Source: Halosimplex pelagicum
GTDB lineage: Archaea > Halobacteriota > Halobacteria > Halobacteriales > Haloarculaceae
Direction of reading: 5' to 3'
DNA: 64,000 nucleotides
Assembly (NCBI RefSeq): GCF_013415905.1
Contig: NZ_CP058909.1
Location: forward strand, 1,674,001-1,738,000
Made by a program: the position numbers and the translations under genes
In this document: positions 33,472 to 37,006 of the stretch, one piece after another
How the letters are laid out: the number at the start of each line of letters is the position of its first letter
How positions within the stretch are numbered: position 1 is the stretch's first letter
The notes under the pieces: generated by a model
Seen by the model: the letters and a program-made list of their open reading frames with translations, nothing else
Databases searched by the model: none
Told to the model about the DNA's origin: nothing

Positions 33472-34716
33472 TTAATCCGGGCGGATGACGTCCAGCCCGT
33501 TGTTCTTCTCTAAGTTGTCGCGGCCGCCGTCGGTGTGGCCGTAGTCGGGCTCGCCGCCCGAGTTCCCGCCTGCGCCGTGGCCGCCGCCCATGCCGCCGGA
33601 GTCGCCGAACTCGGTGTCGACGTTCTCGCTGGCGTCGAAGGTCGAGTCGTCCACGTCGTCGAGCGCCTGACGGGACTTGTCGGCCTGCTTCTGGGTCGTC
33701 GGACCGAGGACCTGCGCGGACTTGACGCCGGTCATGATGGCCATGACCCGCACCTTGCCCTTGTACTCCTCTTCGATGCGCGCGCCCCAGATGACGTTGG
33801 CGCTCGCGTCGAGGCGCTCGGTGATGTTCTGCGCGATGCCCTCGGCCTCCTTCAGCGCGAGGTCGGGGCCGCCGGTGATGTGGACGAGGCCGCCGGTCGC
33901 CCCGCGGTAGTCCACGTCCAGCAGCGGGTGGTTCATCGCGTCTTTCACCACTTCCTCGGTCTTGTTCTTGTCCTGGGTCTCGCCGACGAGCATGACTGCG
34001 ACGCCACCCTGATTCATGATGGCGGTCATGTCGGCGTAGTCCAGGTTGATGAGCGAGGGCTGGGTGATCGTCTCCGAGATGCCCTTGACCGTCTCCGCGA
34101 TGATCTGGTCCATCACGGAGAAGGCCTTGCCGATGGGCAGGTTCGGGACGTAGTCCAGCAGGCGGTTGTTGTCCAGCACGATGATGGAGTCGGCCTCGCT
34201 GCGGAGGGTCTCGAGACCCTTCTCGGCCTTGACCGTGCGGGCGCGCTCGACGTTGAACGGCGTCGAGACCATCCCGACGACGATGGCGCCCTGGTCTTTG
34301 GCGATGTTCGAGACGACCGGCGCGGCGCCGGTCCCCGTCCCGCCGCCCATGCCGGCGGTGACGAAGACGAGGTCGGCGTCACCCAGGACTTCCTCGATGG
34401 TACCCTGGGCCATCTCGGTGGCGCGCTTGCCCATCTCGGGGTCGCCACCGGCGCCGAGTCCGTTGGTCAGCGACTTGCCGACCAGGATCTTCGTGTCCGC
34501 CTCGATCATCTGCAGGTGCTGCTTGTCGGTGTTGATGGCGACGGTGTCGGCACCGTCGACGCCGATGTTGTACAGGCGGTTGACGGTGTTGTTCCCGGCG
34601 CCACCGCAGCCGACGATGACGATCCGGGGGTCGCCGAAGCCGTCGCCCTCCTGCTCGTCCATCTGCTTCTGCTCGGCCTCGTCCCGTTCGAGGGCCTCCT
34701 TGACGATATCCTGCAT
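33472..34716 (-). CDS. ftsZ2: Cell division GTPase FtsZ2
   Basis: 414 aa. A tubulin-superfamily GTPase with [16 protein letters not shown], the signature [12 protein letters not shown] and the T7-loop region INLDYADM. It starts [16 protein letters not shown] and ends with a Gly-rich linker and a conserved [10 protein letters not shown] tail, which fit haloarchaeal FtsZ2 rather than FtsZ1. FtsZ2 drives septal constriction together with FtsZ1 in Haloferax. The gene begins 3 bases after the cdrS stop, so the two are almost certainly co-transcribed, as in other haloarchaea. Confidence 0.94.
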
Positions 34717-34719
34717 CGT

Positions 34720-34908
34720 TCAGGCCCTCTGGAAGCTGCGCCGCTTGCGCTTTTCGGAGGGGCGCTCCTTGCTCCCGTCCTGCTCGTTTAGTTTCTCGCG
34801 GACGGCCGCCCGGATGGCTTCGCTCCGGTTGGGGTACTCCCCCGTTTCGACCATTCGCTCGACCTCTTCGATCTGCTGCTTCGGAATCCGTAGTGTCACA
34901 CGCTCCAT
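34720..34908 (-). CDS. cdrS: CdrS ribbon-helix-helix cell-division regulator
   Basis: 62 aa from the ATG at 34908; the longer frame above it is Arg-rich and lies in the promoter region. The protein is an RHH/MetJ-Arc type regulator: strand [19 protein letters not shown], then [19 protein letters not shown], then a basic tail ending [10 protein letters not shown]. Its size, sequence type and position directly before ftsZ2 match CdrS, reported as a transcription factor of cell division in Halobacterium and Haloferax. Palindromic GTAAGACG sites lie upstream. Confidence 0.92.
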
Positions 34909-34927
34909 GTTTGATGTTCCCCTTTGG

Positions 34928-34968
34928 GTAAGACGGCAGCCGTGGACGCGGTCGCCCGTTCGTCTTAC
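34928..34968. promoter_or_regulatory. Spaced inverted GTAAGACG pair upstream of cdrS
   Basis: GTAAGACG (34928-34935) and its reverse complement CGTCTTAC (34961-34968) lie 25 bases apart in the cdrS leader, 20-60 bases before the start codon. They repeat the half-sites of the compact palindrome at 35040-35057, so the region holds four half-sites in all. Probably a secondary operator; binding by CdrS or CdrL is inferred. Confidence 0.5.
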
Positions 34969-35039
34969 ACGGCGACTTCGAACTCCCATCCGACGTAATC
35001 GCACGAAGGCGCGGGTCACACGTCCGCGCCGCGGCCCGT

Positions 35040-35057
35040 GTAAGACGACCGTCTTAC
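35040..35057. promoter_or_regulatory. Palindrome GTAAGACG-AC-CGTCTTAC, candidate CdrS/CdrL operator
   Basis: A perfect 8+8 inverted repeat with a 2-base spacer. On the minus strand it begins about 26 bases after the TATA box TTTATAA (35089-35083), so it would cover the transcription start of the cdrS-ftsZ2 operon. That is the usual position for an archaeal repressor. RHH proteins bind such short palindromes as dimers of dimers. Confidence 0.6.
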
Positions 35058-35082
35058 GCAGGAATTACATCTGGGTGTAGGG

Positions 35083-35089: not shown

Positions 35090-35159
35090 GGTAACGGCGA
35101 GCGTCATACACTCGGTCGTTTACGGCGTTTAATCCGCTCTGTGTAGCGTTTGCGGCGTT

Positions 35160-35762
35160 TCAGGATTGGTCGAGCACGTCGGCCGCCGGGGTGCGGCGGC
35201 CGCAGCTGGGGCAGAAGGCCCAGTCCGACCGGAGTTCGTCCCCGCAGTCACAGAAGACGCGGTGGGACGCCTTCTCCCCACAGTTCGGGCAGTAAACGTG
35301 CCCAGAGGAGACGTTTTCGCCACATTTTCCGCACGACCGTTCCGCGTCGTCGGGCGCGTTTTCGCCCGCGTCCGCGCCTGTCTTACGACCGGGATCGACG
35401 CCCGACGCTTCGGCCGCCGGGGCCGGTGACGCGTCGGCCTCCGAGCGGCTGGACGGGGCGTTTTCGCCGTCGAGAGCGATGTTTACGTTGATGTCCTGGG
35501 GTTGGCTCGGCGTAAACGCACCGTCCAGGCGGTCGGCGACGATGGCGTCGACGCGCTCGGCGATGAGGTCGTCGATGGACTCGCTCGCGTCCGACGCCTC
35601 GGCGGTCGGCGTCGACCCCGTCGCCGTCGCGCTCGGTCGCGTGTCCGTCCCCTCGCCGAGATACTCCCGCAGGGCCTCCCGCATGATCTCGCTCTTCGAG
35701 GCGTCGAACCCCTCGAGTCGCTCGATGAGATCGTCGTCCGCGCGGAAGGTAATCTTGCTCAT
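35160..35762 (-). CDS. cdrL: CdrL-type regulator: ribbon-helix-helix plus zinc ribbons
   Basis: 200 aa. An N-terminal RHH domain (MSKITFRADDDLIERLEGFD, then SKSEIMREALREYLGEG) is followed by a disordered acidic linker. Two C-terminal zinc-ribbon units follow: CGKCGENVSSGHVYCPNCGE, and CDCGDELRSDWAFCPSCG. RHH plus zinc ribbon and location just upstream of cdrS-ftsZ2 match CdrL, described as a regulator of that operon. It is on the same strand as cdrS but separated by 251 bases with a promoter. Confidence 0.88.
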   Translation of the reverse strand: MSKITFRADDDLIERLEGFDASKSEIMREALREYLGEGTDTRPSATATGSTPTAEASDASESIDDLIAERVDAIVADRLDGAFTPSQPQDINVNIALDGENAPSSRSEADASPAPAAEASGVDPGRKTGADAGENAPDDAERSCGKCGENVSSGHVYCPNCGEKASHRVFCDCGDELRSDWAFCPSCGRRTPAADVLDQS

Positions 35763-35914
35763 CCGACTCGTGAGATCCGTCGTCGCCCGGGTATTTCAAT
35801 CTTCCCGCAGTGTCTGACGCGTGTCTGTCGCCGTCGGTATGGCTGGGTCACTCTCCCACTCCCGCCGCGAGTCAAAACGGTTAAGTCCGACACGGCGGCT
35901 ACCTGCAAGTGCGC

Positions 35915-35988
35915 CCGCCCTTAGCTCAGACTGGTAGAGCAGTCGACTGTAGATCGACTTGCCCCCCGTTCAAATCGGGGAGGGCGGA
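35915..35988 (+). tRNA. tRNA-Tyr (GTA)
   Basis: 74 bases, no intron. The acceptor stem CCGCCCT pairs perfectly with AGGGCGG, with discriminator A. The D-stem is GCTC/GAGC and the anticodon stem GTCGA/TCGAC around the loop CTGTAGA gives anticodon GTA. The T-stem is CCCCG/CGGGG with loop TTCAAAT. The 3' CCA is not encoded. The 232 bases after it, up to 36220, contain nothing that I can identify. Confidence 0.96.
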
Positions 35989-36220
35989 CTTGGTTTTCGG
36001 CCGAACCGTAGTCGACCGCCGAGCGCCATCACCCCTCCGGGAGCGTGTCCGACGGGTCGACGACGTGGTGCGAAGGACTAACACGGACGAGTCCTGAGCG
36101 CCGTGGGGCTGGTGGCTGCCAGTCCACGGTGGTGTCCCGGCGTCGGCGCACGTCCGACCCCAACCCCTCCCACACGCGCGCCGGCGGACGCCGGTCGTTC
36201 ACGGACCGGGACACACCGTC

Positions 36221-37006
36221 TTACTCCTCGGACTCGTCGGTTCCCATCGCCTGCGTGACGTGGGTGACGGTGACGAGGCCGAGCCCGCCCACGAGGTTGC
36301 CGGCGGTGACGACGGCGGTCATCGCGGCGAGCCGTTCCGGGCCGACCGTCGCGCCCAGCAGCGTCCCGAGGACGACGTGAAGGATGGAAACGACGACGTG
36401 GTCGAACGGGCCGAGCGCGAGCATGAAGCCGACGGCGTAGGCGAGCCAGAGCCGGCTCCCGTCGCTCCGGACGGAGACCACGAGGAAGGAGAGCAGACTC
36501 ACGAGCGCGCCGCCGGCGATGCCGCGGGTGAACCACGTGCGCGCGGGCCGGTGTGCGGTCTCCTCGGCGAAGCGCTGGAGCGCGTCGGCCCCGGCTGGTG
36601 GGATCGCGCCGTCGACGGCGAACACGAGGGCCAGCAGGCCGCCGCCGAGGAGGTTGAAGACGAACGTGAGCGTCCACAGGCGCAGCAGCGACGGGACGGC
36701 GGAGACGCCGCGCTCGACCGCGGCGGCGGCGGGGTCGGAGAAGTTCTCGTTGAACAGTTCCGTCTGCCCGGCGACGAGGAAGACGACCCCGGGCGCGAAG
36801 GCCAGCGCGCCGGCGACCCGGGCGGCGTGGCCGGCGGTCGGTCGGACGAGCCCCTCGACGATGCCCAGCGCGACGACGCCGAACAGGACGGTGAAGCCGG
36901 CGATGAAGCTCGTCGAGGCGAGTTCGAGGAGCGACTGGTCGAGTCGGCGCTCGCCCTCCTCGACGGCCCGGTCGAATATCTCGCCGGGTGTCAACTGCTG
37001 GGTCAC
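36221..37006 (-). CDS. Formate/nitrite transporter (FNT) family protein
   Basis: 261 aa from the GTG at 37006 (VTQQLTPGEIFDRAVEEGER), where family similarity starts; a longer ATG frame runs back almost to the divergent gene's start. Six or more membrane helices are visible, with FNT-like segments FIAGFTVLFGVVALGIV, FLVAGQTELFNENF, NLLGGGLLALVFAV, WFTRGIAGGALVSLLSFL and TAGNLVGGLGLVTVTHV. FNT channels carry formate, nitrite or hydrosulfide; the ligand is not predictable here. It is divergent from the gene at 37110. Confidence 0.85.
   Translation of the reverse strand: MTQQLTPGEIFDRAVEEGERRLDQSLLELASTSFIAGFTVLFGVVALGIVEGLVRPTAGHAARVAGALAFAPGVVFLVAGQTELFNENFSDPAAAAVERGVSAVPSLLRLWTLTFVFNLLGGGLLALVFAVDGAIPPAGADALQRFAEETAHRPARTWFTRGIAGGALVSLLSFLVVSVRSDGSRLWLAYAVGFMLALGPFDHVVVSILHVVLGTLLGATVGPERLAAMTAVVTAGNLVGGLGLVTVTHVTQAMGTDESEE

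Follow-up and report, generated by a model that had tools for sequence, protein, structure and literature searches.

A class-wide array of GTAWGAC half-sites in front of cdrS-ftsZ2 in Halobacteria, a candidate operator for CdrL

Operators of RHH proteins such as NikR, Arc, MetJ and CopG are built from short half-sites arranged in pairs, on which the proteins bind as dimers. Two proteins of this type have been described at division genes of salt-loving archaea, and the array reported here bears on the question of how much division ring archaea build, and when. Among the closest described systems is the CdrL region of Halobacterium salinarum, which shares with our locus the gene order, the intergenic region, the RHH/zinc-ribbon regulator and a single reproducible target. 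ChIP-seq of CdrL in this organism gave one reproducible site, upstream of cdrS-ftsZ2; in the available text of that study, cdrL is called present in all sequenced Halobacteria and no motif is named for CdrL (PMC7439475). In Haloferax volcanii, CdrS was shown by ChIP-seq to target ftsZ1 at a site at -50 of its start. The reported motif is symmetric and lies upstream of promoters, further targets are dacZ, panA and psmB, and the site list, in the available part of the paper, contains neither the promoter of cdrS itself nor cdrL (PMC8406309).

The window analysed here, a 64-kb stretch of the Halosimplex pelagicum genome, carries the genes in the order cdrL, cdrS and ftsZ2, and cdrL and cdrS flank the array, as a previous interpretation made from the letters alone (the sequence-only reading) had stated (Table 1). 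The same reading had noticed four GTAAGACG half-sites between the two genes, and all four are exact and in place, at 34928-34935 (+), 34961-34968 (-), 35040-35047 (+) and 35050-35057 (-). The only further copy in the window is found at 36217-36224; 1.12 copies are expected compared with the five observed, a number that none of 100 shuffles reached. Two of the half-sites form the compact palindrome P (GTAAGACGACCGTCTTAC), which has no second exact copy in the 5.2-Mb genome, where two other places resemble it with 2 mismatches, and P indeed follows right after a TATA box on the coding strand. The observation was right but understated: a fifth site, D, exists upstream of BRE/TATA, and conservation is that of the GTAWGAC heptamer, not of the whole octamer. 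The remaining half-sites, S4 and S3, had been described as a second spaced pair; both are present, but they are not supported as one operator and were rejected as a fixed unit, since S3 is degenerate in many loci and the spacing varies (mostly 26-35). CdrS matches RHH_1 with 38.3 bits, above the cut-off, and two named Halosimplex genomes encode it with 100% identity; CdrL reaches 18.9 bits, just below the cut-off of 20.5, and its CdrL_M and zinc-ribbon matches lie above theirs. The array thus has an RHH regulator encoded beside it, as expected of an RHH-protein operator. Upstream of cdrL, the other strand carries a tRNA gene (35915-35988; Rfam RF00005, 60.8 bits).

Table 1. Features of the cdrS-ftsZ2 control region and its surroundings (positions within the window)
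Feature	Position	Strand	Basis
ftsZ2, second gene of the controlled operon	33472..34716	-	ORF; tubulin family match at this genome place
cdrS, 62-aa RHH protein	34720..34908	-	RHH_1 match
GGGGAA, conserved purines ahead of the cdrS start codon, possible ribosome-binding site	34917..34922	-	ATG-anchored profile
Site S4, CGTCTTAC on coding strand, nearly invariant	34928..34935	-	heptamer exact in 198/207 loci, either orientation
Site S3, GTAAGACG on coding strand, variable	34961..34968	-	exact in 116/207 loci
Compact palindrome P of two heptamers that start 11 bp apart	35040..35057	.	sequence and conservation
Predicted transcription start region of cdrS-ftsZ2	35057..35061	-	TATA spacing
TATA box TTTATAA	35083..35089	-	sequence and profile
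BRE-like stretch CGCCGTTACC	35090..35099	-	sequence and profile
Site D, GTATGAC, 52 bp upstream of P start	35103..35109	-	sequence and conservation
cdrL, RHH and zinc-ribbon protein, candidate reader of the array	35160..35762	-	domain matches; published ChIP-seq
CdrS-type pair GTCTGAC-N4-GTCTGTC in front of cdrL, one mismatch	35812..35829	.	pattern search

Conservation of the half-site before cdrS in related haloarchaea had been named as a check on the sequence-only reading, and it holds class-wide. Among 292 genomes of the class Halobacteria, the exact pattern GTAAGAC-N2-6-GTCTTAC is present in 286 (once in 285, twice in one, whose second copy lies away from cdrS, and absent in six), compared with matches in 5 for a reversed-pattern control; the 18-mer of P is found with up to 2 mismatches in 260 and CdrS at E <= 1e-12 in 291. 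Genomes without the exact palindrome include one that is also without a cdrS match, two with one mismatch and two with GTCATAC as the second arm, the last four being represented among the loci studied. These loci comprised 80 named ones, others derived from the searches and 60 stretches picked to cover missing families and genera. DNA before cdrS was taken from 234 of 239 sequences with a usable CdrS match, which gave 207 distinct upstream regions after removal of duplicates; two loci were left out because their upstream DNA was too short. P precedes cdrS with at most two mismatches in all 206 readable distinct loci (200 exact, five with one mismatch, one with two), the 207th being masked, and GTAAGAC lies within 210 bp before cdrS in 207/207 loci, compared with 9/205 control stretches further upstream. 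The heptamers of P start 11 bp apart in 164 of the 207 loci and 9, 10, 12 or 13 bp apart in most others, so that short half-sites are paired about one helical turn apart, as in RHH operators. Site D reads GTAWGAC, 36-80 bp upstream of P, in 177 of 197 loci with adjacent cdrL. The array is real, strongly conserved and nearly always single-copy, a predicted operator array present throughout the salt-loving archaea.

The promoter layout is conserved as well. In a profile anchored on P (164 loci with the commonest spacing), D lies about 52 bp upstream and is followed by a BRE-like stretch, a TATA box starting at -32 and P, so that about 32 bp separate the start of the TATA box from that of P. This is the usual distance between TATA box and transcription start in archaea, and the start is therefore predicted at the edge of P. 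The long leader that had been proposed fits this layout, with about 150 nt from the start of P to the ATG here and mostly 90-150 nt in relatives; S4 is located about 20-30 nt before the ATG. By eye, the GC-rich leader between P and S3 (34909-35039 here) looks rich in hairpins in many species. Looping, which had been proposed too, is not supported: distances between D and P cluster at 51-54, 61-66, 71-75 and 84-85 bp and leave gaps at 55-60, 67-70 and 76-83 bp, but this phasing is a hint only, because relatedness and the fixed position of the TATA box could produce it.

A sister heptamer, GTCWGAC, is found at other promoters of the same genomes. FtsZ1 was found in 50/50 genomes searched, and 28 of 30 ftsZ1 loci had readable upstream DNA; within 110 bp, 24 of these 28 promoters carry GTCWGAC and none carries GTAAGAC, and the pair GTCWGAC-N4-GTCWGAC (up to 2 mismatches) is present in 25, next to BRE/TATA and 63-67 bp upstream of the ATG. 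We infer that the CdrS logo, as far as the available text describes it (PMC8406309), is GTCWGAC. Upstream of cdrS, GTCWGAC occurs in 25/207 regions, with a total of 30 copies, of which 18 are placed 20-21 bp before S4; a CdrS-type GTCTGAC about 20 bp before S4 was seen in some lineages (e.g., loci L114, L155 and L163). In the window, GTC does not stand in both heptamer halves at any site of the array, P, S3 and S4 being GTAAGAC and D being GTATGAC. Since the control stretches upstream of cdrS contained GTCWGAC in 84/205 cases, the cdrL promoter was examined, and the pair (up to 2 mismatches) was found in 124 of 201 distinct cdrL upstream regions versus 5 of 200 control stretches; the pair of Haloferax marisrubri is weak, with 3 mismatches. 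Genome-wide, 15 of 18 genomes hold 1 to 6 matches to the pattern GTCWGAC-N4-GTCWGAC. CdrS may thus control cdrL through the pair in front of cdrL, and the one-base GTC/GTA difference suggests how the sister regulators keep their targets apart. The strand positions 3, 5 and 7, which we take to be the DNA-reading ones in both proteins, are R3-T5-R7 in CdrS (MERVTLRIP in 207/207) and K3-T5-R7 in CdrL (10/10 rows), and the exchange of R3 for K3 is a plausible basis for the one-base change of the site.

We assign a probability of roughly 60% to the reading that the array is the operator of cdrS-ftsZ2 and is read mainly by the neighbouring CdrL. The presence of one palindrome in 285/292 genomes agrees with the single published CdrL site, the ChIP peak being a region that is not base-resolved. 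The sequence-only reading had proposed an RHH-type operator flanked by cdrL and cdrS, and class-wide conservation and the published CdrL ChIP-seq favour the operator. Equal roles of CdrL and CdrS as binders are not supported, since CdrS-type sites, GTCWGAC, differ by one base and the Hfx. volcanii CdrS sites do not include the promoter of cdrS. Ten of the 207 loci, from about seven lineages by genus label, do not have cdrL beside cdrS, and a CdrL profile search of these ten genomes gave no convincing copy (best E 6e-6 to 5e-4, or none), compared with E values of 2e-33 to 1e-83 where cdrL is present; a few of the weak matches in the CdrL-less genomes touch the RHH part. Several of these loci have a tRNA-like stretch upstream in the place of cdrL. 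P and S4 are exact in 10/10 of them, whereas D as GTAWGAC is found in 4/10 versus 177/197 loci with cdrL (Fisher p 0.0003, not corrected for phylogeny) and S3 is kept in 1/10 versus 116/197 (Fisher p 0.003, likewise not corrected for phylogeny). As exact GTAAGAC, D is found in 1/10 versus 121/197; it was recounted with GTAWGAC because many D sites are GTATGAC. Some of the erosion of D and S3 is shared by sister genera that have CdrL: in genus g5, GTCATAC at D and one mismatch in S3 are already seen in members with CdrL, and a further locus with cdrL (L198, family f10) is without S3. The constancy of P and S4 in the CdrL-less genomes means that CdrL cannot be the only reason for keeping them, which weakens the idea of CdrL as sole reader, and another reader than CdrL, perhaps CdrS, or a further role is thus implied for both. 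The asymmetry of GTAAGAC also counts against reading by CdrL, because a homodimer is expected to prefer a symmetric heptamer; with GTA on one side and GAC on the other, the heptamer would perhaps suit a heterodimer of CdrS and CdrL.

Outside the class, cdrS is preceded by the sister heptamer instead. Of 148 genomes sampled across the phylum, 72 gave a CdrS match at E <= 1e-5, 48 of these lying outside Halobacteria; CdrL matches there are weak and fall in the zinc-ribbon part. None of 39 genomes outside the class has the exact palindrome at cdrS, the one copy detected lying far from its cdrS. Of the 48 cdrS upstream regions, 26 were examined, and GTCWGAC is found within 200 bp before cdrS in 24 of these. 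The last 130 bp contain 49 exact GTCWGAC sites versus 0 in control stretches, and GTAAGAC is found in 1 of the 26 regions. Near-matches that lie at least 8 bp apart give 144 distances, and 11 bp or a multiple of it accounts for 129 of them, which 0/2000 random placements reached. This lattice suggests that the DNA there can be covered by a row of CdrS dimers, with one dimer every 11 bp. The comparison further suggests that the GTAWGAC form at cdrS is peculiar to Halobacteria, where it is new and goes together with CdrL; a single base (GTC to GTA) seems to have been exchanged in the cdrS promoter of this class. It is a tentative scenario, to which we give somewhat less than even odds, that an ancestral lattice for CdrS self-control was rewired in this way and split in two, with CdrS acting on ftsZ1 and cdrL via GTCWGAC pairs beside BRE/TATA and CdrL acting on cdrS-ftsZ2 via the GTAWGAC array at the start site. 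If true, CdrS and CdrL would control each other in a loop, and this loop would set the dose of the division ring.

The same lattice hints at ancestral autoregulation, and CdrS, an RHH protein that is always encoded beside the array, might itself be the main reader, with GTAAGAC as a tolerated or deliberately weakened GTCWGAC; the retention of P and S4 in all ten CdrL-less genomes would suit this autoregulatory array. However, GTCWGAC is rare at cdrS and is used at ftsZ1, the available Hfx. volcanii site list does not include the promoter of CdrS itself (PMC8406309), and ftsZ2 is lowered rather than raised on loss of cdrS, which makes CdrS an unlikely main reader. That P and S4 behave unlike D and S3 where CdrL is missing could also point to a third protein, conserved and DNA-binding, as the reader of P and S4, CdrL having been added at D and S3 or being recruited through that protein. 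We regard this as still less probable, since no candidate was identified, the restriction of the element to Halobacteria coincides with CdrL, and CdrL is the sole occupant named in the available text (PMC7439475). As for similarity arising by chance or locally, without function, the half-sites are indeed short, but class-wide conservation, the shuffles and the upstream controls refute it and leave it with a negligible probability.

It is also conceivable that the repeats act in the leader RNA, where a 5'-end hairpin at P, or pairing of P with S3 and S4 near the start codon, would control stability or translation of the mRNA. In the window, the computed fold of the leader pairs P with S3 and S4 (-64.7 kcal/mol, z -1.69; 10/200 shuffles fold as well), P and S4 vary least within the array, and Ribo-seq, in the available text, suggests post-transcriptional control of the operon (PMC8303175). 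However, for pairing of S3 with S4 in 148 loci, 34 of 1036 cells are broken, 17 one-sided and 1 compensated, and for the arms of P, 6 of 1442 are broken, 1 one-sided and 0 compensated; with almost no compensation, the exact sequence seems to be kept rather than the pairing. The consensus fold of 17 leaders, chosen for diversity from the 207 and poorly aligned in the mid-leader part, shows only a near-invariant P:S4 helix with a covariation term of -0.02, and no covarying structure was seen in that poorly aligned part. The leader gave no convincing Rfam match, the tRNA gene being the one strong match of that search, so that neither compensatory changes nor a known RNA family mark it as a structured RNA, and the same heptamer occurs as D upstream of the TATA box, outside the transcript. 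Control through the RNA is thus highly improbable.

If CdrL is the main reader, each GTAWGAC heptamer would be bound by one RHH dimer, and two dimers 11 bp apart on P would cover about +1 to +18, thereby hindering loading or escape of the polymerase. A dimer at D, upstream of BRE/TATA, and others at S3 and S4 in the leader would strengthen or modulate this hindrance. GTAWGAC would derive from GTCWGAC, the presumed CdrS heptamer, by a single base change (GTC to GTA), which would insulate the cdrS promoter from CdrS and hand it to CdrL. We infer GTAWGAC as the recognition sequence of CdrL, as well as repression at P and cooperativity. The direct repression proposed by the sequence-only reading fits the position of P over the predicted start, from which repression is predicted, but published ftsZ2 data do not fit simple autorepression by CdrS: ftsZ2 falls 1.3- to 2.2-fold without cdrS, and cdrL is weakly positively co-expressed with cdrS, unlike what simple repression would give. 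Second-site mutations have been reported in the cdrL deletion strain, and together with the fall of ftsZ2 these genetic data are compatible with either sign of control. D, which lies beside BRE/TATA like the ftsZ1 pair, could activate.

The operator array, the one-base sister site and the 11-bp lattice narrow the question to a few base changes that can be tested directly, and they allow one to read how the operators of two related regulators have diverged. In the literature that was searched, with preprints, most subscription journals, figures and supplements outside its coverage, no paper describing the cdrS operator was found; new here are the heptamer and its arrangement in five sites, the nearly always single copy across the class, and the link to the CdrS-type site. 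The array resembles the CdrS motif of Hfx. volcanii (PMC8406309), which is symmetric and is found upstream of promoters, that of ftsZ1 among them, and differs in having GTAAGAC at cdrS, whereas relatives carry GTCWGAC pairs at ftsZ1. In the Sulfolobales, aCcr1 and SegB are likewise RHH proteins acting on division or segregation genes, and SegB has imperfect palindromes in front of its own genes; according to the available texts, protein families, sites and division machinery are different (PMC12284271, PMC7617429). Compared with the operators of NikR, Arc, MetJ and CopG, the cdrS array has another sequence, belongs to other organisms and is not known to involve an effector. Taken together, the array is new in its sequence, its architecture and its evolutionary relation to the CdrS-type site, and the kind of regulation is already known.
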